Of a stretch of 34,034 nt of DNA, positions 15,223-34,034 are shown in pieces. Source of the DNA: a virus; IMG/VR virus record IMGVR_UViG_3300037189_009263, positions 1 to 34,034 of that record; one strand, given 5' to 3'. The position numbers and the translations under genes are program-made. The stretch's first letter is position 1. The number at the start of each line of letters is the position of its first letter. The notes below the pieces were generated by a model, which worked only from the letters and a program-made list of their open reading frames with translations, was not told the DNA's origin and made no database searches.

Positions 15223-18117
15223 TCAGAACATCTTTCTCTTTACTTCTCGCTGAGAAGAGCGAGTTTTATTGTAAGTCAAAGCTCTTCTTGCGTAGACCGG
15301 AGCAACACCAGCGTCCCAAATCTTTTCAGCTGCCTTTTCTTCTGCTGCGTTAGAAACAGTGAACATAGGAAGGAATGTGTCATTACTGACGGAAACTCCC
15401 CTTACGGCATAATCGGGATTCAGTAAGGTGTCGTAATTGTAAGTTACAGCAAATGCAGCCAACAAAAGAGCATCGTGAGCGTGATCGGGCGCAGATCCAC
15501 CAGGGCCAAAGACTGGACGGTTACTTATTGAGGTTCTAATGACGATATAGGAAATCATTTGAAGATACAGGTCTTCGTCAGCTGGATTGAAGATAATCTT
15601 CTTTTGCTCCAACATATAACGAAGGTTATCTACCATAAATGGCTTAAGATCCTTTTTTACCTTTTCATGGGTATAAGGATCGGGAACTTCAATAACCTCG
15701 TTGAAAGCCCATGCTCGGGCTACATGTTGCAGTCTTGTTTCTGGGTGTTCCTTACCATAAAGGTGTATATGCTCCATCTGCATCTCACCATAGCCTCTAT
15801 CAGCGTAGATATGCTTTGGCTTAAAGATCTCGTTAAGTTGAACGACTCTATCTACAGCCTTATGAAGTAAGAATTGATCTTTTGAAATTTCTTCTCTATA
15901 GGCTACGCGAATCTTCGATGGATATAGCGGGTTATCATCAGAGCAGATTTCCACCACTACAATGTTTACGCCAGCTCCATATTTATCCCAGTCAATACCA
16001 AATACGTATATAGACTTAGGATGGCCAATATCAGCCTTATATTCCCACGGTTCTCCATCGAAGAAGGCGTGATCGACCAATCTTCTAGGATAGACACCAT
16101 CTGCGTCTTCACCCCAGTCAGCTTCGTATTCGTGCTGGAAAGCTAATTGAGTAGTGCTGTTTCTAAGGCGCTCTTCTTCTTTTTGCTCCCATAACGGGTT
16201 GCAATAGGTCGGATACCAAAACGCGCTATACGAAGGGTCATGGTTCCAATCCCAGAACATGTTGCGCTGACCGGTTGGGGTAGAAGCAGCAATAAGAACC
16301 TTATCCTCTTGATCTTCAGAGGTCTTCTGAAGCATAGGGAGAACAGCCACAAGGTCTTCTTTACCCATGTAGTCCATCTCGTCAAGAACGATGACGTGGG
16401 CTTCCTGACCACGGACAACGTCGGCCTTGGAGTTTGACTTCATACCCGTAGTGAAGAGCTTAATACTCGACCCGTTAGAGAAGTTAATCTCGTACTGAGG
16501 AGATGCGACAGCTCTTACGATTGAAGACTTGACTATCTCGTTTCTTTCGGCCATCTCACAAATAGCATCAAAAATAACGCCTACCTGCGATTTCATTGGC
16601 GCAAGGACAATAGACTTGCCATTTGTGTGGGTATACGAATACCAAAGCAGGTAAATAGACATACAGAAGGTATTATGAGTAGGAATGCATTCTCGACCAG
16701 CAAGATATAAATGGTTAGGCGAATCGACAGAAATACATTTCACCGGCTCTGATTCTATAGGAGTGATATCTACAATGTATCTTCTATCCCTACCAGATCC
16801 GGGCTTTATCGATTGGCGATCCAACTTACGTTGCAACTTGAAAACTGGAGTATTACTCTTAAAGTGAATACGAACTCTATCTTTATGACGAACTCCATTA
16901 AGCCAAGATTCGCATACTTCCTTTGTTGCTTTAAATCCTAATTGAATAATAAGATCAAAAACTTGTTCCGCAAAATATGGATTTGAACTCGAAAATTCAC
17001 ACCAGCCGTTCTGATCACATGACCCATCAGTATCCATCAAGCCTTTAAGAAGTTCAAATCTCTGTTCAACTGAAGCCATCATATATTGATGTGGAATGTG
17101 TTTGTTATTCTTTAATCCAAGCAAATTCAGTAATTTAGCTAATCCTTCAACTCTGTATTCATATTTGGTTGATTCGGCTTTATAGATATTATATCCATCA
17201 TTCTCTATATGATAAATTGACTCCTTTACGTCTTCATCACCTATAGAGACCAGCCCATTAGCTGAAACGCCATCACCAAGCCAAAAACCAAGGAGATATG
17301 GAGAAATGGGCAAATCTATGCCTTCTTCGGTAAAACGAATTGGTTTTGTAACCTTAATAGAATAATTAGACTCTTGCTTAGATCCAATCTTAACTTGTTC
17401 CAACATTTGACCAGTTGTTAGTACCATTGGCGGAAGCTGCTTGTATTTGTTCCGAGCATTGCTTTTTCGAATTCGTTTCGTCTCTACAGCCCACTGGTGG
17501 TCGTGATCGGCCTTGATAACTGAGCCATCACTAAAGACAATGTTATAACACTTCCTATTTTCCATTACTTCCGTTACGAATGTAACATTACATGGTTTAC
17601 CGTTTTCATCAAGAACCTGATCACCCTCCTTGATATCGCCCATAGTTGACCAACCAATTGGCGTTAAGATAGGAGTATCCAAAGCTAGTGCCTTACCCAT
17701 ACGACGACCGAAGCGCATAACTCGGTTAACATTGGGATCACGTAAAACGAGAGTTTGGTAGACGCGAGGCTCTAAGCCCAGAAAAGACTTACACCAAAGG
17801 ACTGGTTCTGAAGCTATGTGAATATGCTTCTGTTGCTCTTCGTTAAAACCCCATTTTTTAGCCATTTTCATATCAAATATGAAAGGAGGGTCAATAAGGT
17901 GACAAAGTTCTTCGTTGGTCAGATCTCTACTCTCGATTGGTGAACCATCATCCCAAGTTAAGTGGCCAAGCTTATTTTTGAACACCCACTCAATTCTATT
18001 GATCTGCTTGATGTATTTAGGCGATTGCTGCGCAATGAACTCTAAAAGCTCTTCGCGCGACAAAGTACTTAAGCGTCTTTTAAATTCTTTGGTTGTTTCT
18101 AATTCAATCTGTCCCAT
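15223..18117 (-). CDS. terL: Terminase large subunit with intein
   Basis: The 964-aa precursor is a packaging motor whose Walker A motif (GRRMGK / T) is split by a 340-residue intein; the spliced protein would have about 624 aa. After the intein come Walker B (VIVLDEMDYM), a coupling segment (LIAASTPTGQRNMFWDW) and the RNase H-like nuclease with acidic residues in FGIDWDKYGAG, HIYADRGYGE and APDHAHDALLLA. It cuts and pumps concatemeric DNA into proheads through the portal. The start at 18117 follows the upstream TGA by 1 bp with a GGGG-type site. A TTG at 18159 is the alternative and would overlap that gene by 41 bp. No small terminase is recognised with certainty nearby. Confidence 0.9.
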   Translation of the reverse strand: MGQIELETTKEFKRRLSTLSREELLEFIAQQSPKYIKQINRIEWVFKNKLGHLTWDDGSPIESRDLTNEELCHLIDPPFIFDMKMAKKWGFNEEQQKHIHIASEPVLWCKSFLGLEPRVYQTLVLRDPNVNRVMRFGRRMGKALALDTPILTPIGWSTMGDIKEGDQVLDENGKPCNVTFVTEVMENRKCYNIVFSDGSVIKADHDHQWAVETKRIRKSNARNKYKQLPPMVLTTGQMLEQVKIGSKQESNYSIKVTKPIRFTEEGIDLPISPYLLGFWLGDGVSANGLVSIGDEDVKESIYHIENDGYNIYKAESTKYEYRVEGLAKLLNLLGLKNNKHIPHQYMMASVEQRFELLKGLMDTDGSCDQNGWCEFSSSNPYFAEQVFDLIIQLGFKATKEVCESWLNGVRHKDRVRIHFKSNTPVFKLQRKLDRQSIKPGSGRDRRYIVDITPIESEPVKCISVDSPNHLYLAGRECIPTHNTFCMSIYLLWYSYTHTNGKSIVLAPMKSQVGVIFDAICEMAERNEIVKSSIVRAVASPQYEINFSNGSSIKLFTTGMKSNSKADVVRGQEAHVIVLDEMDYMGKEDLVAVLPMLQKTSEDQEDKVLIAASTPTGQRNMFWDWNHDPSYSAFWYPTYCNPLWEQKEEERLRNSTTQLAFQHEYEADWGEDADGVYPRRLVDHAFFDGEPWEYKADIGHPKSIYVFGIDWDKYGAGVNIVVVEICSDDNPLYPSKIRVAYREEISKDQFLLHKAVDRVVQLNEIFKPKHIYADRGYGEMQMEHIHLYGKEHPETRLQHVARAWAFNEVIEVPDPYTHEKVKKDLKPFMVDNLRYMLEQKKIIFNPADEDLYLQMISYIVIRTSISNRPVFGPGGSAPDHAHDALLLAAFAVTYNYDTLLNPDYAVRGVSVSNDTFLPMFTVSNAAEEKAAEKIWDAGVAPVYARRALTYNKTRSSQREVKRKMF
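16672..17691 (-). mobile_element. Class 3-type intein with LAGLIDADG endonuclease
   Basis: The 340-residue element starts ALALDTPILTPIGWSTMGD, with Ala where most inteins have Cys or Ser, and ends ECIPTHN before the extein Thr. It shows the three marks of Class 3 inteins: Trp in block B (HDHQW), Cys in block F (EPVKCISVDSPNHLYLAG) and Thr in block G (PTHN). In this class splicing begins with attack by the block F Cys, not residue 1. A LAGLIDADG endonuclease sits inside, with its two helices at YLLGFWLGDG and LLKGLMDTDG, both Asp present, so it may still home. Insertion inside the P-loop keeps the terminase inactive until splicing. Confidence 0.85.
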
Positions 18118-18118
18118 A

Positions 18119-19294
18119 TCAACCCCAAGCTGCGTGTATTCCAGCCGCCTCGTTGCCAAGAGCAGAACGCATGTTCAATCTGCTGTTCGAGATAGCCATA
18201 ACACCTCTTTGGCGAGATGTTGAAGCTACCATGTTGTCTCTGAATCCCATACCCATAATAGGCTTATCTATTGAGCCCTTTACGGAATTTCCAGCATCGA
18301 TGGCGGTTTTAGCAGCTGAAGAGAATACCTTACCTGTCATTACAGCAACATCTCTAGCGAGCAATGCCCAACCTATAGGTCCAGCGGCTCGTGCTAAGGC
18401 TGGAGCAAAGCGGGCGCTTCTAGCACCAAACTTAGCCATCCCACTGCCTTCTTTCATTATCGTATCAAACTTCGCGGCACCTTTTGCAAAGTTTGAACCT
18501 GGTGCAGCTAAGTTTGTAGCTTCTCTAACTCCGACCCCCATATGTGACATCGTAGAAGCATGGACGAATCCAGCCGCCCTTTGGGATATAGAACCTCTCA
18601 TCGACATACCAACTGCTTGAGCCGCTTCATTTCTGCCGAAGGCGTCGATGGTCATTCCAGATAAGCCCATAGATCTTTTAACAGCGGCCCCATATCCCCC
18701 TGGCGCTGCATTCGCAACACCCCAACGAGTAAGGGCCTGATTGTATTGAGTAGGATTCAATTCTTTAAAAGCATTACCAATGTTCGGTAGCATTCTGTCA
18801 AATGCTCCTTGACGTGCGCCGTAAACACGCCCCATAGTACTGAGACGACCAGCAGAACCTGCTGAAAACCAAGTTCCATCAGATCCAGCAGGTCCTAAGT
18901 GTCCAGCTATGTATCTACCAGTTCTACCTTTTGAATTAGCAGCTCTGACTGCACCTTTATTACCATAGTTTGCTAAAACGTTAAAAGGTGAATAAGTTCT
19001 CGAACCTGACGGTGGTTCAATGTTAGAAACTGAGCCAAGTCTATTAAAAGCTGCGGGAGAAAAGGTCTGTCTAAGTCCTCTAGCGCTAGTTGCACCTCTA
19101 CGAGGTCCTTTGACCATCGTATTAGAAACACGACGCATGTTCCACATCATGGTGTGAGAAACGGTCGGCAACGAAGAAAGAAGATCTTGAGCTAGTGGAA
19201 TGTCGGTTCCGGAAGCAGCCATAGCGTCTAGGCCTATTTGGCCACCCATGGTAGTGGCTTCTATCGGCTGTCCTGTGTTGGGATCAACTATCAT
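18119..19294 (-). CDS. Glycine/alanine-rich virion-type protein, 391 aa
   Basis: No family recognised. The protein is basic and rich in Gly, Ala, Ser, Arg and Met, with many short turns (GNKGAVRAANSKGRTGRYIA). A hydrophobic stretch near residues 312-330 (ALARAAGPIGWALLARDVAV) could insert in a membrane or pack as a helix. Such composition is typical of internal or ejected phage proteins. It follows the 204-aa and 969-aa genes with 4-bp overlaps and precedes the terminase. ATG with AGAGGC. A role in the virion interior or in DNA delivery is inferred only from composition and context. Confidence 0.55.
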   Translation of the reverse strand: MIVDPNTGQPIEATTMGGQIGLDAMAASGTDIPLAQDLLSSLPTVSHTMMWNMRRVSNTMVKGPRRGATSARGLRQTFSPAAFNRLGSVSNIEPPSGSRTYSPFNVLANYGNKGAVRAANSKGRTGRYIAGHLGPAGSDGTWFSAGSAGRLSTMGRVYGARQGAFDRMLPNIGNAFKELNPTQYNQALTRWGVANAAPGGYGAAVKRSMGLSGMTIDAFGRNEAAQAVGMSMRGSISQRAAGFVHASTMSHMGVGVREATNLAAPGSNFAKGAAKFDTIMKEGSGMAKFGARSARFAPALARAAGPIGWALLARDVAVMTGKVFSSAAKTAIDAGNSVKGSIDKPIMGMGFRDNMVASTSRQRGVMAISNSRLNMRSALGNEAAGIHAAWG

Positions 19295-28579: not shown

Positions 28580-28642
28580 CAACTGTAAGTATTTGTGAAA
28601 AAATGAGTGCGTAACTGCATTCTATCCTACCTATGTAGCGCT

Positions 28643-28678
28643 AAAGGGCCTCTCGGCATTGAGGGGTCCTTTTTTTTT
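28643..28678 (+). terminator. Strong intrinsic terminator after the recA operon
   Basis: A 12-bp stem with two G-U pairs (AAAGGGCCTCTC with GAGGGGTCCTTT), a 6-nt loop GGCATT and a run of nine T. This closes the recA-def transcript and insulates the GC-rich module downstream. Confidence 0.9.
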
Positions 28679-28889: not shown

Positions 28890-28907
28890 ATGTCTATAGG
28901 AGGACAT
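28890..28907 (+). promoter_or_regulatory. Loop-displayed RBS of the 79-aa gene
   Basis: Stem ATGTC/GACAT (5 bp) with loop TATAGGAG carrying the Shine-Dalgarno core, two bases before ATG 28909. First of the series of such hairpins in the right module. Confidence 0.6.
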
Positions 28908-28908
28908 C

Positions 28909-29148
28909 ATGAACATCTATGACTACATCAATGTCATCATGATCATTGCACTGCTGTGTGTGATCATTCCCATGCTGTGTGTACTCACGTATGCATGTGT
29001 GTATCCCATGATCATGAGCGTGCGTAAGGCTGATGCCCTGCGTACACGTACTCATGGTGTTGTTGTGCGTACCCCTGCATACAACGCTCAGTGTGAGGCC
29101 CTTGTGCTCATGCTCATGAGTGAGGATGACATCTCCATGTGTGCGTAG
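28909..29148 (+). CDS. Single-TM small protein, 79 aa
   Basis: The N-terminal 38 residues are strongly hydrophobic (VIMIIALLCVIIPMLCVLTY), giving one long or two short membrane segments. The remaining ~40 residues are soluble, with RKADALRTRTHG at the membrane exit and an acidic end (MSEDDISMCA), so the tail is likely cytoplasmic. No signal-peptidase site is evident. It opens the GC-rich module and has a GGAGG site in a hairpin loop. Codon use is C/G-ended with CGT, unlike the genes before the terminator. Possible superinfection or host-membrane function; not recognised. Confidence 0.65.
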   Translation: MNIYDYINVIMIIALLCVIIPMLCVLTYACVYPMIMSVRKADALRTRTHGVVVRTPAYNAQCEALVLMLMSEDDISMCA

Positions 29149-29317
29149 TAGTACCCATGTATACACATGCCTATATGTATAGGTAGTGTGTATGTATGCA
29201 CTGAGGGTACACCCCATGTATGTATGCGTAGTAGTACGTGTATGTATGTGTGGTGTGCCCAATTGTGTATATATGCACCCATGCATAGTACACATGTCCA
29301 ATAGGAGGGACATACCC
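29149..29317 (+). promoter_or_regulatory. Structured TG/TA-rich leader
   Basis: The 169-bp gap is unusually rich in TGTATG, with CCTATATGTATAGG (29170-29183, a 6-bp hairpin) and two copies of TGCGTAGTAGTAC (29142-29154, whose start lies in the previous gene, and 29225-29237). It ends in the loop-displayed RBS. No clear promoter pair was found. Likely a leader RNA. Confidence 0.45.
29294..29313 (+). promoter_or_regulatory. Loop-displayed RBS of the 176-aa gene
   Basis: Stem ATGTCC/GGACAT (6 bp), loop AATAGGAG, ending 4 nt before ATG 29318. Same plan as the first hairpin, with a longer stem. Confidence 0.6.
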
Positions 29318-29848
29318 ATGTACACCATCACCATCCTCATGTACCTCACCCTCATCACCATGGTGGGGGCCTACCACATGCAGAAGGCTGCCTTCCGCTA
29401 CCTCACCCGGTACGTGGAGAAGAACAGCACCCCTGCCCCCATCGGCTACTACCTCGGCATGCCCGTCTACGCCATGGAGGCAGGTATGGGTGGCCTGGAC
29501 CTGGATGACCACTTCATCCCCGACTTCCTGCGTCATGGTCTGATCCAGGCAGAAGCCGATGTACTGGACGTGCTGGACGACGAGTACTACGCCCAGCAGC
29601 TCACCGACTCCATCAACACCTACGAGGCAGAGATGGACATGGAGTGGGAAGACGAGATCATGGGCTACACCCTGTCCGACATCGTGGAGTTCATGGTGCT
29701 GGACAGCGATGATGATCCCTACGAGGACCTGCCCTTCACCGCTTCCATGCGTCGTTCGGCCAAGGTCGGCAAGTCGGGCATCAACTACGCCCTGAACTGT
29801 GGTGCTGAGCGCTCGATCCACAACGCGGGTGACAAGGTCCGCAAGTAA
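29318..29848 (+). CDS. Membrane-anchored acidic protein, 176 aa
   Basis: ATG 29318 is set by AGGAGGG in a hairpin loop; the open frame reaches 29186, but that part is the structured leader. Residues 1-18 form an N-terminal TM helix (MYTITILMYLTLITMVGAYH). The soluble part is acidic, with MEAGMGGLDLDDHFIPDFLR at ~55-75 and an Asp/Glu-rich stretch (AEMDMEWEDEIMGYTLSDIV). The GG-x-DLDDHF string recurs in the polymerase-like protein downstream. C-terminus is basic (NAGDKVRK). No family recognised. Strong C/G-ended codon bias suggests high expression. Confidence 0.6.
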   Translation: MYTITILMYLTLITMVGAYHMQKAAFRYLTRYVEKNSTPAPIGYYLGMPVYAMEAGMGGLDLDDHFIPDFLRHGLIQAEADVLDVLDDEYYAQQLTDSINTYEAEMDMEWEDEIMGYTLSDIVEFMVLDSDDDPYEDLPFTASMRRSAKVGKSGINYALNCGAERSIHNAGDKVRK

Positions 29849-29855
29849 GAGGTTA

Positions 29856-29903
29856 GCCCTACCCTGGTGGGTAACTGTATGGGTTCGATTCCCATATAGG
29901 GCG
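29856..29903 (+). ncRNA. tRNA-like minihelix without anticodon arm
   Basis: A textbook T-arm (ATGGG-TTCGATT-CCCAT, 29879-29895) is followed by an acceptor strand (TAGGGC, 29897-29902) that pairs with GCCCTA at 29856-29861. Between them lie only ~16 nt, able to form a small D-arm-like hairpin (CCC-TGGT-GGG). There is no anticodon arm and no encoded CCA, so it cannot be a working tRNA. It may be an RNase P/Z processing signal between two genes, or a tRNA remnant. Confidence 0.5.
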
Positions 29904-29932
29904 CTACGTAGTATACATCCCGTATACACGTA

Positions 29933-29947
29933 TGTCCAAGGAGGACA
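29933..29947 (+). promoter_or_regulatory. Loop-displayed RBS of the Cys-rich protein
   Basis: TGTCC-AAGGA-GGACA: 5-bp stem, 5-nt loop, five bases before ATG 29953. An upstream in-frame ATG at 29932 lies in the 5' strand of the hairpin and has no site of its own. Confidence 0.6.
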
Positions 29948-29952
29948 ACATC

Positions 29953-30969
29953 ATGAAGTGTTTCGCAATCACCGCCGAAGGTACCCACTGCAGCCGTGAG
30001 GTTGTGTCGGGCAAGACCATCGCACTAGACGGACGAATCGCCCGCCTGTGCAACCAGCACTACAAGACCGTGTCCAACATCGCCCAGGTGTGGACCACCG
30101 AACCCATGTACATCAGCAACGTCCAGGAGGACAACACCATGACCATGAACGAAGAGTTCGACTTCCACGCCGCTCGTGAGTGCAGCAGCGTCTACCGCAA
30201 CATGTGCCCCAACAAGCCCATGACCATCATCCACGAGTACTCCGAGGGCTACGAGCTGTCCTCCGGTGTCTGCTTGGAGTGCGCCATGATCGCCCGCAAG
30301 ACCATCATCAACAACTCCCAGGAGGAGATCATCAACAAGGACTTCGATGACAAGAACAGCTTCGACTCGGCCGTCGCCAAGTTGGAGGGTCAGCCCTACA
30401 CCATCTACAACGGGGGTTACCAGGGTATGTTCCTCTTGGAGAGCTGTGGTCACCCCGAGTGCCAGCAGGAGTACCAGGAGGCCCTGTGGGACAACATCGG
30501 CTGCATCTGCTGCGGCGAAGACAACTGCCAGCACTACTACACCCTGCTCTGCCTCAACCACACGTCCAAGGAGGACACCATGAACATCAACACCATCATC
30601 ACCAGCAACGAGGTCAAGGAGAACAACCTGCCCTCGTCCACCGTCACGGGTTCGTCGGACCGCGGTGACAAGTGGATCAAGTGCGTCAAGTGCTCGAAGG
30701 AGATCGGGTCGAACTGGTACCACGCCAACGTCGCTGATGTGCGTACCTGCATGGGTGCTGCTCCTGCGCCCGTCAAGCGTGTCTACAAGACCGACGTGCT
30801 CACCGGTGAGACCGTGCTGACCAACAGCGATCTCCGCTTCTTCTACGACTCCTCCAAGGTCGTGGTCTTCGCCAAGGCCAAGGAACTGCGTGAGGCTGGT
30901 GTCCACGTGTTCAAGGTCGCCAAGGCCACCAAGGGCAACCAGGACTGGTACGTCGAGTACAAGATCTGA
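29953..30969 (+). CDS. Three-segment Cys-rich protein with internal starts
   Basis: A 338-aa frame made of three zinc-binding-like segments. Segment 1 (29953-30138) starts MKCFAITAEGTHCSR and has RLCNQHYK, like the short C-A-x-T-x-x-G-x-x-C ... C-x2-H fingers. Segment 2 (30139-30579) has many Cys (VCLECAM, ESCGHPECQQ, CICCGEDNCQH). Segment 3 (30580-30969) has WIKCVKCSKEIG with a later His and Cys. The ends of segments 1 and 2 (SNVQEDNT, HTSKEDT) are literally translated ribosome-binding leaders, each followed by an in-frame ATG. It therefore looks like three former genes joined by loss of stop codons, possibly still made as nested products. Function unknown. Confidence 0.7.
   Translation: MKCFAITAEGTHCSREVVSGKTIALDGRIARLCNQHYKTVSNIAQVWTTEPMYISNVQEDNTMTMNEEFDFHAARECSSVYRNMCPNKPMTIIHEYSEGYELSSGVCLECAMIARKTIINNSQEEIINKDFDDKNSFDSAVAKLEGQPYTIYNGGYQGMFLLESCGHPECQQEYQEALWDNIGCICCGEDNCQHYYTLLCLNHTSKEDTMNINTIITSNEVKENNLPSSTVTGSSDRGDKWIKCVKCSKEIGSNWYHANVADVRTCMGAAPAPVKRVYKTDVLTGETVLTNSDLRFFYDSSKVVVFAKAKELREAGVHVFKVAKATKGNQDWYVEYKI
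30121..30132 (+). promoter_or_regulatory. Internal loop-displayed RBS (segment 2)
   Basis: GTCC-AGGA-GGAC, 4-bp stem, followed after 6 nt by in-frame ATG 30139. Sits inside the open frame of the Cys-rich protein. Confidence 0.5.
30564..30576 (+). promoter_or_regulatory. Internal loop-displayed RBS (segment 3)
   Basis: GTCC-AAGGA-GGAC, 4-bp stem, 3 nt before in-frame ATG 30580. Nearly identical to the hairpin that starts segment 1. Confidence 0.5.
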
Positions 30970-31033
30970 GCTGCTCTGCTCCAGATGACGTAACCGTTGC
31001 GTCGTTAAATAAGCACGGTACAACCCCAGCGTC

Positions 31034-31098
31034 TCATATGGCTGGCTAAACACATATGAAACCAGTGAGCACGTGCAACTGGCTAAACATGTACGTGT
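31034..31098 (+). ncRNA. Tandem hairpins with identical 12-nt loops
   Basis: Hairpin A (31034-31059): 7-bp stem TCATATG/CATATGA, loop GCTGGCTAAACA. Hairpin B (31069-31098): 9-bp stem GCACGTGCA/TGTACGTGT with two G-U pairs, loop ACTGGCTAAACA. Stems differ, loops agree at 11 of 12 positions, and both are followed by ACCA, which could pair with the loop TGG. They lie in the leader of the polymerase-like gene and suggest a regulatory or protein-binding RNA. Confidence 0.6.
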
Positions 31099-31099
31099 A

Positions 31100-31123
31100 C
31101 CACAGAGGAGGAAACTACTGTGG
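31100..31123 (+). promoter_or_regulatory. Loop-displayed RBS with start codon in the stem
   Basis: CCACAG/CTGTGG (6 bp) encloses a 12-nt loop that begins AGGAGGAAA. The GTG start at 31120 lies in the 3' strand, so the stem must open for initiation. The 5' strand may also pair with the loop of hairpin B. Confidence 0.6.
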
Positions 31124-33564
31124 AAACCATCAAGCGTGACATCTACAACAAGATGTCCATCATTGGCAAGGTCATCCCTGGTTTGGAAATCCAGGACATC
31201 GACCTCGCTACCGTTGCGACGGAAGACATGGCAGAACTCAACACCAAGCTCACCGCGGATACCACCGTGTTCAGCTGGGTCAAGGGTTCTGGTGTGACCT
31301 TCTTCGCTGCGCCCAACTCCACCTCGTCCCGCTACCCTGACTTGCTCGCCAAGCTGGGCATCGATGTCAAGGTCGGGGCCAAGACCATGAAGCGTATCGC
31401 CCGTGCGTTCAGTGATCGTGACGTGGTCGTTCACCTCGACATGGACTCCATCAAGATGGAGCTGACTGCTGGTGACGAGTTCAACCGTGGTACGTTCACG
31501 GATCCCGATGACATCGACGCTCTGCAGGATGGTATGATCGCCATCTCCAAGAGCTTCGCTACTCACCTCATCCGTGAGGCAGGCATGAAGACCAGCATCC
31601 TCAAGGGTGCGGAGGCCCTGTCGTTCTCCATGGTGTTCCCCGGTGGCTTCTTGAAGGCGCTGGCTTACATCGTGGAGGACCACAAGATGGCTGTCATCGG
31701 TGCAGACATCATCACCTGTGGTGCCAACATCAAGAGTGAGATGTTCACCAAGGACAACATGGCCTGGATCGCGTTCGACGTGTTCCGTCCCTACTCGGAT
31801 CCGAAGACCAACATCCAGACCGACATCATGTTGCGTGAGATCTTGGGCAACCAGGGTCTCGATGCTCAGTACTTGACCGATACCTTGGCCAAGGACAAGC
31901 GGAACATCATGAACGGTACTGCCGTCAAGTCCCTGCAGGAGTGGAACATGCCCTCCCTGGAGCGCAAGTTGGGTTCCAGCCACAAGGTCAACGCTGACTT
32001 CGCGTCCCTGCCTGACATGGCTACGGACATGATGGCTCGTGGCCTGGACTACCGGTGGTTCCCCGGTCTCATCGACATGCTGGCATCGGGTGCCTCCAAC
32101 CAGTGGTTCAACAACGCTGGTCAGTGGGCCAAGTACCCTCTGCCCTGCGCGTGGAGCCGTCCGGTCATCTCGGAGTCCGGTGCTTGCCTCATCGGTGAGG
32201 AGATCACTGTCAACCGCGGTGACATCCGGGCCATCCGTCATGGTGAGGTGTGGGTCGTCAATGATGAGGACTACATCGAGTTCTTCCGTACCAACGCTGG
32301 TGGTGCTGACCTGGACGACCACTTCATGCTCATCTTCCGCCGTGTGGAGGGTGCGCGTAAGGTCGTCGTGGGTCGTATCCCCATGGGTTGGCGGGAGTTC
32401 TCCGTCTTCAACTTCGTGGACGGTGATCCCTTCCCCACCTACACCAGCCTCAACGGTGTGTTCAAGGCATTCCCGGAGATCCCCGGTGCCATCCCCAAGA
32501 CGCTCTTCGAGTGCCTGCGGGACGGTGACATGACCATCACTGGCATGGATGCCTTCGCACCGCTGACCTACCCCGCTCAGTACGATCACACCGTCGTGAT
32601 GAACATCGTCAACGACCTGTGCTCGGGCGAGCTGGGCAACGTGGGTTCCATCATCAACGCCATCATGGTGGCAGCGACTGTGGATCCCGCTCTGCTGGCA
32701 GAGGTCCCCGCGTCCATGGAGACCATCATCGACAGCTTCACTCAGGGTGGAGGTTCTGAGGTCCGCAAGGCTCTCACCATTTGGAGCGAGGCACTCATCG
32801 ACATGATGGATGCACGTGGTAACCAGTTGGATGTGATCTTCACCGCCAACAAGGCACTCGGTCGTCGTGGTCGCCTCGGCAACTACAAGGTCCGTGCTGC
32901 TACCCTGGTGCGTGGTGAGTACACCCAGCGGATGGCTGCCAACCTCGGTCTGCGCAACTCCTTCGTCAAGGAGATCAAGGACTTCGGTCAGGACTACAAC
33001 CGCAAGGGCAACCCGCTGCTCATCAAGATGCTGGCCATGTTCAACATGCGCTACTCCAGCGACATCGCCAACACGGCTGATCCTCTGTTCGTCGGTATGC
33101 GTCGTATCACCAAGCAGTTCAACGGTGATGTCATCGCCTACAACCAGATGAACAACGAGGGTCGTGGACAGGGAGAAGCATTCGTGCCCATGTCCTCGGC
33201 TCAGTGGCTGGCCATCTACACCAACTACAAGAACCGCATCACGGAACTTGCTGGTGGCGATGAGACCAAGATGGAACTGTGCACCATCATCGGCTGGATG
33301 ATCTGCATGACCATCCCCAGCTCCAAGGGTCGCATCTCGGATCGTGCCCTCATGAACTCCACCATGTGGCCCATCTTCATCCAGGCTCTGGTCAACTTCG
33401 GTCTGGCCAAGGATCTGGACAAGGTGGTCGCTGGTGAGGAAGACACCATCAACACCTGGGATGTCACCTGCATCACCTGTGGTGCATCCCGTACCCTGGC
33501 TGACGTGAGCAACTACGCTCGCTTCATCAGCAACGACTGCCTCTGCAAGAACTGCAAGGGCTGA
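31120..33564 (+). CDS. Two-barrel RNA polymerase-like protein (QDE-1/RDR/YonO type), tentative
   Basis: The 814-aa product shows, in the family's order, motifs like those of single-chain two-barrel RNA polymerases. LQDGMIAISKSFA (135-147) corresponds to DG-x-G-x-IS-x-x-x-A. ILKGAEALSFSMVF gives the KG strand. FDVFRPYSDPKTNIQTDIML then LREILGNQGL resembles the N-R-Q-I-I-x-LL-x-x-LG block. EITVNRGDIRAI resembles HPGDIR. NAGGADLDDHFMLIF (392-406) resembles GGDLDGDxYF. Here the metal motif is D397-L-D399-D400-H401, not D-x-DGD, so activity is uncertain. A zinc ribbon ends the protein (CITCG ... CLCKNCKG). It could transcribe phage genes or copy RNA. Starts at GTG in a hairpin. No search was possible. 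Confidence 0.55.
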   Translation: METIKRDIYNKMSIIGKVIPGLEIQDIDLATVATEDMAELNTKLTADTTVFSWVKGSGVTFFAAPNSTSSRYPDLLAKLGIDVKVGAKTMKRIARAFSDRDVVVHLDMDSIKMELTAGDEFNRGTFTDPDDIDALQDGMIAISKSFATHLIREAGMKTSILKGAEALSFSMVFPGGFLKALAYIVEDHKMAVIGADIITCGANIKSEMFTKDNMAWIAFDVFRPYSDPKTNIQTDIMLREILGNQGLDAQYLTDTLAKDKRNIMNGTAVKSLQEWNMPSLERKLGSSHKVNADFASLPDMATDMMARGLDYRWFPGLIDMLASGASNQWFNNAGQWAKYPLPCAWSRPVISESGACLIGEEITVNRGDIRAIRHGEVWVVNDEDYIEFFRTNAGGADLDDHFMLIFRRVEGARKVVVGRIPMGWREFSVFNFVDGDPFPTYTSLNGVFKAFPEIPGAIPKTLFECLRDGDMTITGMDAFAPLTYPAQYDHTVVMNIVNDLCSGELGNVGSIINAIMVAATVDPALLAEVPASMETIIDSFTQGGGSEVRKALTIWSEALIDMMDARGNQLDVIFTANKALGRRGRLGNYKVRAATLVRGEYTQRMAANLGLRNSFVKEIKDFGQDYNRKGNPLLIKMLAMFNMRYSSDIANTADPLFVGMRRITKQFNGDVIAYNQMNNEGRGQGEAFVPMSSAQWLAIYTNYKNRITELAGGDETKMELCTIIGWMICMTIPSSKGRISDRALMNSTMWPIFIQALVNFGLAKDLDKVVAGEEDTINTWDVTCITCGASRTLADVSNYARFISNDCLCKNCKG

Positions 33565-33574
33565 CCTACCATTA

Positions 33575-33608
33575 GTAGTGGGGGTATGATTCGCTCTGCC
33601 CCCACTAC
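33575..33608 (+). terminator. Hairpin at the 3' end of the polymerase-like gene
   Basis: Perfect 10-bp stem GTAGTGGGGG/CCCCCACTAC with a 14-nt loop, 11 nt after the stop. There is no T-run, as in many actinobacterial terminators, so it may terminate or protect the mRNA end. Confidence 0.5.
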
Positions 33609-33643
33609 AGTGGTTATTCTAAATGTGCCCACGCACACACCTT

Positions 33644-33658
33644 TCGGTGTTTAGCCGA
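33644..33658 (+). ncRNA. Anti-loop hairpin
   Basis: TCGG-TGTTTAG-CCGA. With its flanks, GTGTTTAGCC (33647-33656) is the exact 10-nt complement of GGCTAAACAC in hairpin A before the polymerase-like gene. An overlapping hairpin ACACC-TTTC-GGTGT (33637-33650) is an alternative fold. Confidence 0.4.
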
Positions 33659-33731
33659 TCGCTGACGCTCACTCATTCTAAACAAAGCTGGATAACTACT
33701 CAACTCGCGTTTGTCTCGCCTAAAGCGTGAA

Positions 33732-33875
33732 CAGTAAAAAAGGGGTGAATCTCTCTGATGAGTCGGGAATGTGAAGCAATGTGTGTTCTTGCATTGTGTG
33801 AGCCTGACGATGGACAAGTGCCATCATAACGCAACGTCAGAGGGGTTCACGTCAGTTCAGTAAAGAAGGGGTGAA
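33732..33875 (+). repeat. Two direct copies of an 18-nt leader repeat
   Basis: CAGTAAAAAAGGGGTGAA (33732-33749) and CAGTAAAGAAGGGGTGAA (33858-33875), 126 bp apart, differ at one position. The first contributes to the 16-bp stem and the second to the hairpin before the last gene. Confidence 0.7.
33745..33850 (+). ncRNA. Long-stem leader RNA with alternative pairing
   Basis: 33745-33760 pairs with 33835-33850 over 16 bp (three G-U). Inside are CAATG/CATTG (33777-33796) and GATGG/CCATC (33809-33825). CTGACG (33804-33809) can instead pair with CGTCAG (33835-33840), which would break the long stem. Two exclusive folds suggest a switch or attenuator. Confidence 0.5.
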
Positions 33876-33894
33876 GTTCAAGGAGAATTTCCCC
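33868..33894 (+). promoter_or_regulatory. Upstream RBS hairpin with 7-codon mini-ORF
   Basis: GGGG (TG bulge) AAGTTC-AAGGA-GAATTTCCCC, 10-bp stem, loop AAGGA. A GTG at 33895 follows and opens a 7-codon frame whose TGA overlaps the ATG of the last gene, a possible coupling device. Confidence 0.4.
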
Positions 33895-33895
33895 G

Positions 33896-33912
33896 TGATC
33901 TATGGAGGATCA
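33896..33912 (+). promoter_or_regulatory. Loop-displayed RBS of the last gene
   Basis: TGATC/GATCA (5 bp), loop TATGGAG, ending 2 nt before ATG 33915. Its stem is unlike the TGTCC stems, but the plan is the same. Confidence 0.6.
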
Positions 33913-33914
33913 TC

Positions 33915-34034
33915 ATGAAGAACGCATTCGCACATCCCGTCCTGACCACCAAGATCGCCGTTGGCACTGGTGTGGTCGCAACCGTCGATGGCATCCGCGC
34001 CGTCAACAACCACACGCTGGCTCCCGTGGTCAAC
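33915..34034 (+). CDS. Truncated gene, first 40 codons
   Basis: Begins MKNAFAHPVLTTKIAVGTGV and is open to the window edge. Strong GGAGG site in a hairpin loop and codon use like the rest of the right module. The visible part alternates small hydrophobic residues and Thr/Ala, which could be a weak membrane segment or beta strands. Too short for identification. Confidence 0.6.
   Translation, partial: MKNAFAHPVLTTKIAVGTGVVATVDGIRAVNNHTLAPVVN

Follow-up and report, generated by a model that had tools for sequence, protein, structure and literature searches.

A block of genes toward the right of a viral contig raises the question of whether its Shine-Dalgarno (SD) sequences are displayed in the loops of small hairpins by selection and, if so, what the hairpins do. 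The contig, referred to here as the window, is the whole stretch of DNA that was analysed, 34,034 bases long (IMG/VR virus record IMGVR_UViG_3300037189_009263). Its leftward genes include the large terminase, portal, major head protein, and head protease, and its rightward genes are RecA, peptide deformylase, and then the hairpin-bearing block. The deformylase block is divided from this module by a terminator-like hairpin and T run at 28640-28675. The terminase gene (15223-18159, minus strand) contains an insertion of about 340 aa within the Walker A motif (GRRMGK / TFCMS) that is absent from the related contig L002; it starts with ALALDTPILTPIG, ends with HN, has a LAGLIDADG match and Ala at position one, and is a probable intein.

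The phage collection was searched at the DNA level with the window, and phage records and viral contigs were searched with single module proteins as queries; neither search returned a relative. Related contigs were reached via portal alignment, the window portal being akin to portals of large phages, e.g., Bacillus phage KLEB27-3 and Moorella phage MTATph1. G003 (IMGVR_UViG_3300021963_009201) is a 190-kb jumbo-phage contig in which RecA, deformylase, and the module have the same order and orientation as in the window. A further scan gave G014, here L131 (IMGVR_UViG_3300013132_000047), a 68-kb jumbo-phage contig colinear with G003. The module was found in these three genomes only, of which the window and G014 are fragments. 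Contig L002 is 84-89% identical to the window and stops at the terminator preceding the module. RecA comparison gave no usable pointer to the host. The module, its hairpins, and the two reading frames discussed below are as follows.

28909-34034, plus strand: codon-optimised module with GC-rich third codon positions; counterpart of 148-164 kb in G003.
28890-28907, plus strand: SD hairpin ATGTC-TATAGGAG-GACAT before ATG 28909 (79-aa ORF); stem probability about 0.79 in context.
29294-29313, plus strand: SD hairpin ATGTCC-AATAGGAG-GGACAT before ATG 29318 (176-aa ORF); stem probability about 0.9, dG -6.5.
29933-29947, plus strand: SD hairpin TGTCC-AAGGA-GGACA before ATG 29953; inner pairs with probability >0.95.
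29953-30969, plus strand: single 338-aa reading frame whose three parts each follow a copy of the leader.
30121-30132, plus strand: in-frame internal leader copy GTCC-AGGA-GGAC before ATG 30139, inside the 29953 ORF; stem probability 0.97.
30564-30576, plus strand: second in-frame internal copy GTCC-AAGGA-GGAC before ATG 30580; stem probability about 0.5.
31100-31123, plus strand: longer hairpin CCACAG-AGGAGGAAACTA-CTGTGG with the GTG start 31120 in its right arm; stem probability about 1.0.
31120-33564, plus strand: 814-aa protein, with homologues of 876 aa (G003) and 863 aa (L131).
33896-33912, plus strand: SD hairpin TGATC-TATGGAG-GATCA before ATG 33915 (ORF runs off the contig); stem probability 0.17 in context.

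The preliminary description of the window had listed seven starts preceded by such stems. All seven stems are present as written, but the starts belong to only five ORFs, since 29953, 30139, and 30580 share one. It had also placed the SD core in the loop or at its edge; GGAG or AGGA does lie in a loop of 4-8 nt at six of the sites, but the final one or two G of the core fall in the right arm. The hairpin at 31120 has a 12-nt loop containing the whole SD, and its start codon is paired (probability of an unpaired start, 0.00), so that this hairpin is predicted to show the SD yet mask the start codon. Isolated hairpins have dG values of -1.2 to -6.7 kcal/mol. In short-context predictions (65 nt), most stems form with a probability >0.7 and leave GGAG about 75% unpaired, the weak cases being 33915 (0.17) and 30580 (0.5) in the window, 155918 (0.37) and 161209 (0) in G003, and 7135 (0.48) in L131. 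Nearly all leaders have the final one or two G of GGAGG in pairs, which makes the display of the SD partial.

Whether such stems exceed chance was assessed in two ways. With the SD kept and the flanks shuffled, the seven window sites gave per-site P values of 0.006 to 0.13. In the arm-swap test, each left arm was matched to the right arms of other leaders, which gave P = 0.03 for the seven window sites. These leaders are not independent because five of them share GTCC/GGAC arms; they look like copies of one leader, as the preliminary description had suspected when it ascribed part of the similarity to duplication. Taken by itself, the window is moderately suggestive of selection. Its leftward arm had been described as free of stems, and this was borne out, with a stem at one of 27 SD starts versus about 1.6 expected. 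Counts for the left arm and for regions outside the module used a crude automatic gene call, which missed several module genes.

G003 and L131 had no part in the first description and thus are an independent replicate of the window. Their leaders, with GGAG or AGGA in the loop, have arms such as TATCCC, TATCC, GTTATC, ATCATTC, TGACC, and TGACCT, and further TCATC, TATCATC, CACGACC, and TCACCT, all unlike the window arms. Of the 53 SD leaders in all three modules, 15 reached the threshold with their own arm versus 5.5% with swapped arms (P = 0.0002). When only the gap-preceded leaders of G003 and L131 were used, 11 of 26 had a stem, whereas 2.3 would be expected if arms were swapped (P = 5e-5). 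Module starts in the 53-leader, ortholog, and coupling sets came from manual, unblinded curation, and for this reason the swap test carries the weight rather than the raw count. Outside the module, G003 had no clear excess of SD hairpins.

The arms also change in a compensatory manner between the two relatives, as seen in a handful of orthologous leader pairs. From 155003 (G003) to 13415 (L131), the left arm exchanges G for C and the right arm C for G, in the same register; a two-sided change between orthologous leaders is seen in TGACCT-ATAGG-AGGTCA versus TCACCT-ATTGG-AGGTGA. Pairs are replaced on both sides in 160287/7638 and 160803/7135 (G003/L131), and six or seven pairs are kept in 155918/12772, with one T-A to C-G change and one G-U. 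At 157593/10767, the L131 leader has no stem, and there a new gene upstream overlaps this one, which makes it a coupled gene. Loop-anchored alignments of hairpin leaders gave two-sided changes at 4/5 and 3/5 pairs, exceeding slid registers; the sets were picked for having stems, which makes the percentage paired circular, and they mix orthologous and unrelated leaders. The earlier statement that the letters of the stem vary while pairing is kept therefore extends to orthologous leaders of G003 and L131, and the loss of pairing without compensation that would have spoken against it gave way to two-sided arm changes. As swapped arms give far fewer stems and homologous leaders compensate, the proposal that selection keeps the SD in a hairpin loop is supported, and the hairpins are very probably real and selected for their shape.

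Recurrence of one exact leader was set aside as proof. The leader GTCCAAGGAGGACANCATG was found among viral contigs in 52 contigs and 23 protein families, with no occurrence of the scrambled-arm control; this was a single control that places the rare Cys codon TGC in-frame, and many of the 52 leaders are coding in the frame where it does so. A general excess of SD hairpins was not evident in the 52 contigs.

The hairpins are not at every start of the module, as had been claimed: coupled genes of the relatives mostly have none, about half of the uncoupled genes have none, and two of the window copies (30139 and 30580) are internal. Among GGAG-bearing module genes, 16 of the 31 preceded by a gap (cut-off, 25 bases) have a hairpin versus 1 of the 15 that adjoin or overlap the gene before them (Fisher P = 0.003). 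Genes served by coupled ribosomes are thus mostly without a hairpin, and genes that recruit their own ribosomes often have one.

The internal copies lie in a stop-free frame, with 62 codons from 29953 to 30139 and 147 codons from 30139 to 30580. Part 1 of this ORF has homologues that are separate genes in G003 (161877) and L131 (6176); a search for homologues of parts 2 and 3 found none. G003 has in-frame nested SD-bearing starts of its own, at 161104 in 161209 and at 162069 in 162159. The leader of the latter nested start, TATC-TGGGAG-GATA, differs by a paired change from that of the free-standing L131 gene 5833, CATC-TGGGAG-GATG, and on our reading the two are probably homologous. Fused cistrons that retain their own starts would be the simplest account of the nested leaders, and the 30139 and 30580 copies would then start shorter proteins within the fused ORF. 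The 29953 fusion may also stem from a one-base assembly error in the metagenomic contig.

The G003 and L131 homologues of the 814-aa protein share 82% identity with one another and 24-26% with the window protein. No match was found for the latter in Pfam, PHROG, or PDB, no homologue was found in the genome contigs searched for it, and AlphaFold gave no usable model (pLDDT 33). It has a conserved GGxDxDDHF motif, which we take to be a possible DxDGD-type RNA polymerase motif, and a C-terminal cluster of Cys pairs.

The composition of the module was compared with that of the left arm. GC1/GC2 are 0.52/0.39 in the module and 0.52/0.41 in the left arm, and GC3 is 0.81 versus 0.38. Lys is always AAG, Asn is AAC in 97% of cases, and Arg is CGT in 57%, with no AGA or AGG. 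Because only GC3 differs, the block is codon-optimised and not evidently foreign; a horizontally acquired GC-rich module was considered and set aside, as GC is not raised at all codon positions. The capsid gene shares the codon lean of the module and has no SD hairpin. In G003, most of the genes with the highest GC3 fall in the same module. G003 encodes tRNAs and a tmRNA, and the module would be expressed early on the host tRNA pool. The tmRNA gene of G003 (L117, 9798-10188, minus strand) has an unusually long predicted tag, ADEYVCDWDAEMATLLEEEGALV, and a second tmRNA gene is found in G002 (L121, 11218-11593, plus strand).

Better initiation at uncoupled genes is probably the function of the shape-selected hairpins. 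A small local stem would keep the SD from pairing elsewhere, and a short loop, mostly of 4-8 nt and a few bases ahead of the start codon, would offer GGAG or AGGA to the 30S subunit, with the stem melting as the ribosome docks. The outcome would be reliable initiation at free-standing cistrons of the codon-optimised module, uncoupled from the upstream gene, and the hairpins would in this way raise or stabilise initiation. Codon optimisation of the module in both the window and G003 fits genes selected for efficient translation. Against this explanation count the partial display of the SD, the paired start codon at 31120, the stems that are weak in context, and the lack of a hairpin at about half of the gap-preceded genes and at the capsid gene, despite its codon bias.

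A regulator that binds RNA and reads the GGA of the loop, either CsrA/RsmA-like and host-encoded or a phage protein, might instead dock at these sites and switch the module jointly. Sites bound by the CsrA family show GGA in the loop of a short hairpin that covers the SD, and the hairpins here are alike in this respect, with loops such as AAGGA, AGGGA, and TAGGAG; the loop is also conserved while the arms vary. Any SD placed in a loop would have the same look, however, and the sites here differ from CsrA/RsmA-type sites in serving many genes of one block. CsrA and RegB genes were sought in the four phage records, of which the window and G014 are fragmentary, and were not found, which argues weakly against a phage-encoded regulator of those two types. 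Joint control by a regulator is considered unlikely. A DNA operator with a single consensus was ruled out, as the arms differ among genes within one genome.

Protection of the transcript, in which a 5' hairpin beside a processing site blocks nucleases or SD-directed cleavage of short mRNAs, is quite improbable as the function of the stems. Pistol ribozymes, hammerhead-like elements, and tRNA-like fragments in the module spacers of the relatives, together with one tRNA-like fragment in the window, speak for it, since processing elements in the spacers make transcript processing near the leaders possible. Stems of 4-7 pairs would be weak against nucleases, though, the position of the hairpin follows the SD exactly, and no RegB was found in the four phage records.

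The spacer elements are of several kinds. Pistol ribozymes above the Rfam gathering score are found in the modules of both relatives (L118, 11996-12072, minus strand; L131, 16312-16391, plus strand), each adjoining a tRNA gene. Hammerhead-like elements are found in L119 (2172-2231 and 2912-2943, both minus strand); the 3' end of the element abuts the SD, G003 has a second copy, and a sequence resembling it lies upstream of L131 5324. Their Rfam score of 24.8 bits is below the gathering score of 48.5, and with a core unlike that of the canonical hammerhead, the element may be something else. The tRNA-like fragments, at 29851-29906 in the window and in the L129 spacers near 161565-161627 and 162558-162620 of G003, have acceptor and T-arm pairing (GGTTCGATTCC) and no space for an anticodon arm. 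ARAGORN called none of these fragments, which are possible RNase P/Z processing signals. The spacer before 29318 also contains a degenerate TGTATGTATG repeat at 29172-29254.

Mild damping of translation, with the stems sequestering the end of the SD (and the start codon at 31120) to offset strong SDs and optimal codons, would account for the pairing of the final one or two G of GGAGG at most sites and of the start codon at 31120. It is very unlikely given that GGAG is about 75% unpaired at most sites, that damping would be odd in the most codon-optimised genes, and that a weaker SD would be the simpler route. The absence of any selection for shape, with one leader duplicated in the window and the remainder due to chance, fits the five window leaders with GTCC/GGAC arms and the window P of 0.03, but is largely refuted and highly improbable in view of the relatives, where unrelated arms gave P = 5e-5 with the window excluded and orthologous leaders changed on both sides.

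The hairpins were compared with the Start-Associated Sequences (SAS) of other phages. Cluster K mycobacteriophage SAS have the 13-bp consensus GGGATAGGAGCCC, lie a few bases before start codons in the place of the ribosome binding site, occur only in the non-structural genome part, and favour genes with a large upstream gap (cut-off, 50 bases); about half have an upstream 17-bp imperfect inverted repeat, the ESAS (PMC3203893). The hairpins here are alike in their site just before the start, in the preference for an upstream gap (16/31 versus 1/15), and in their association with the non-structural region, with no excess on the structural left arm or in G003 beyond the module. In cluster K, the loop ATAGGAG lies between GGG and CCC, which is the same geometry, and ATAGGAG is also in the loops at 28909 and 29318. 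The cluster K arms are nearly frozen, with uncompensated variants, whereas here the arms differ between genes and covary. By the definition of cluster K SAS (at most two deviations from GGGATAGGAGCCC), no match with two or fewer mismatches was found; four matches had three mismatches, none of them at hairpin leaders and fewer than expected by chance. A search of the five window spacers for ESAS-like inverted repeats of at least 12 bases, requiring a 9-base exact seed, found none. Cluster EF Microbacterium phages have SAS with the consensus GGGAAAGGACCCC (PMC7302621). The position and the arm-SD-arm layout are the same, the arms are otherwise frozen, and the phages are unrelated to this group. 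Gene 39 of AnnaSerena (cluster EF) was described as seeming to lack an SAS (PMC7302621); it has CTG-AAAGGAC-CAG, a paired variant (one case). SAS function in actinobacterial phages is still called unverified (PMC12699233). The hairpins here resemble SAS in position and geometry and are not members by sequence.

In clusters K and EF, the SAS ends are able to pair on either side of an SD loop, but the arms hardly vary, so that sequence conservation cannot separate a protein site from an RNA shape and structure could not be inferred from it. In this phage lineage, the arms differ and change in concert, which makes the shape what is conserved. Tentatively, the start-associated elements of the unrelated cluster K, cluster EF, and this jumbo-phage group may represent a single structural solution, a small stem with the SD in its loop, whose shape is conserved while its sequence is frozen or drifts with compensation and which would serve genes that recruit ribosomes unaided and, here, also create in-frame internal starts. 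The natural arm variants are ready for testing how an SD acts when placed in a hairpin loop. Codon optimisation can give a block a GC-rich, foreign look, which calls for caution, and in-frame SD hairpins may flag internal starts that gene callers have merged into one ORF.
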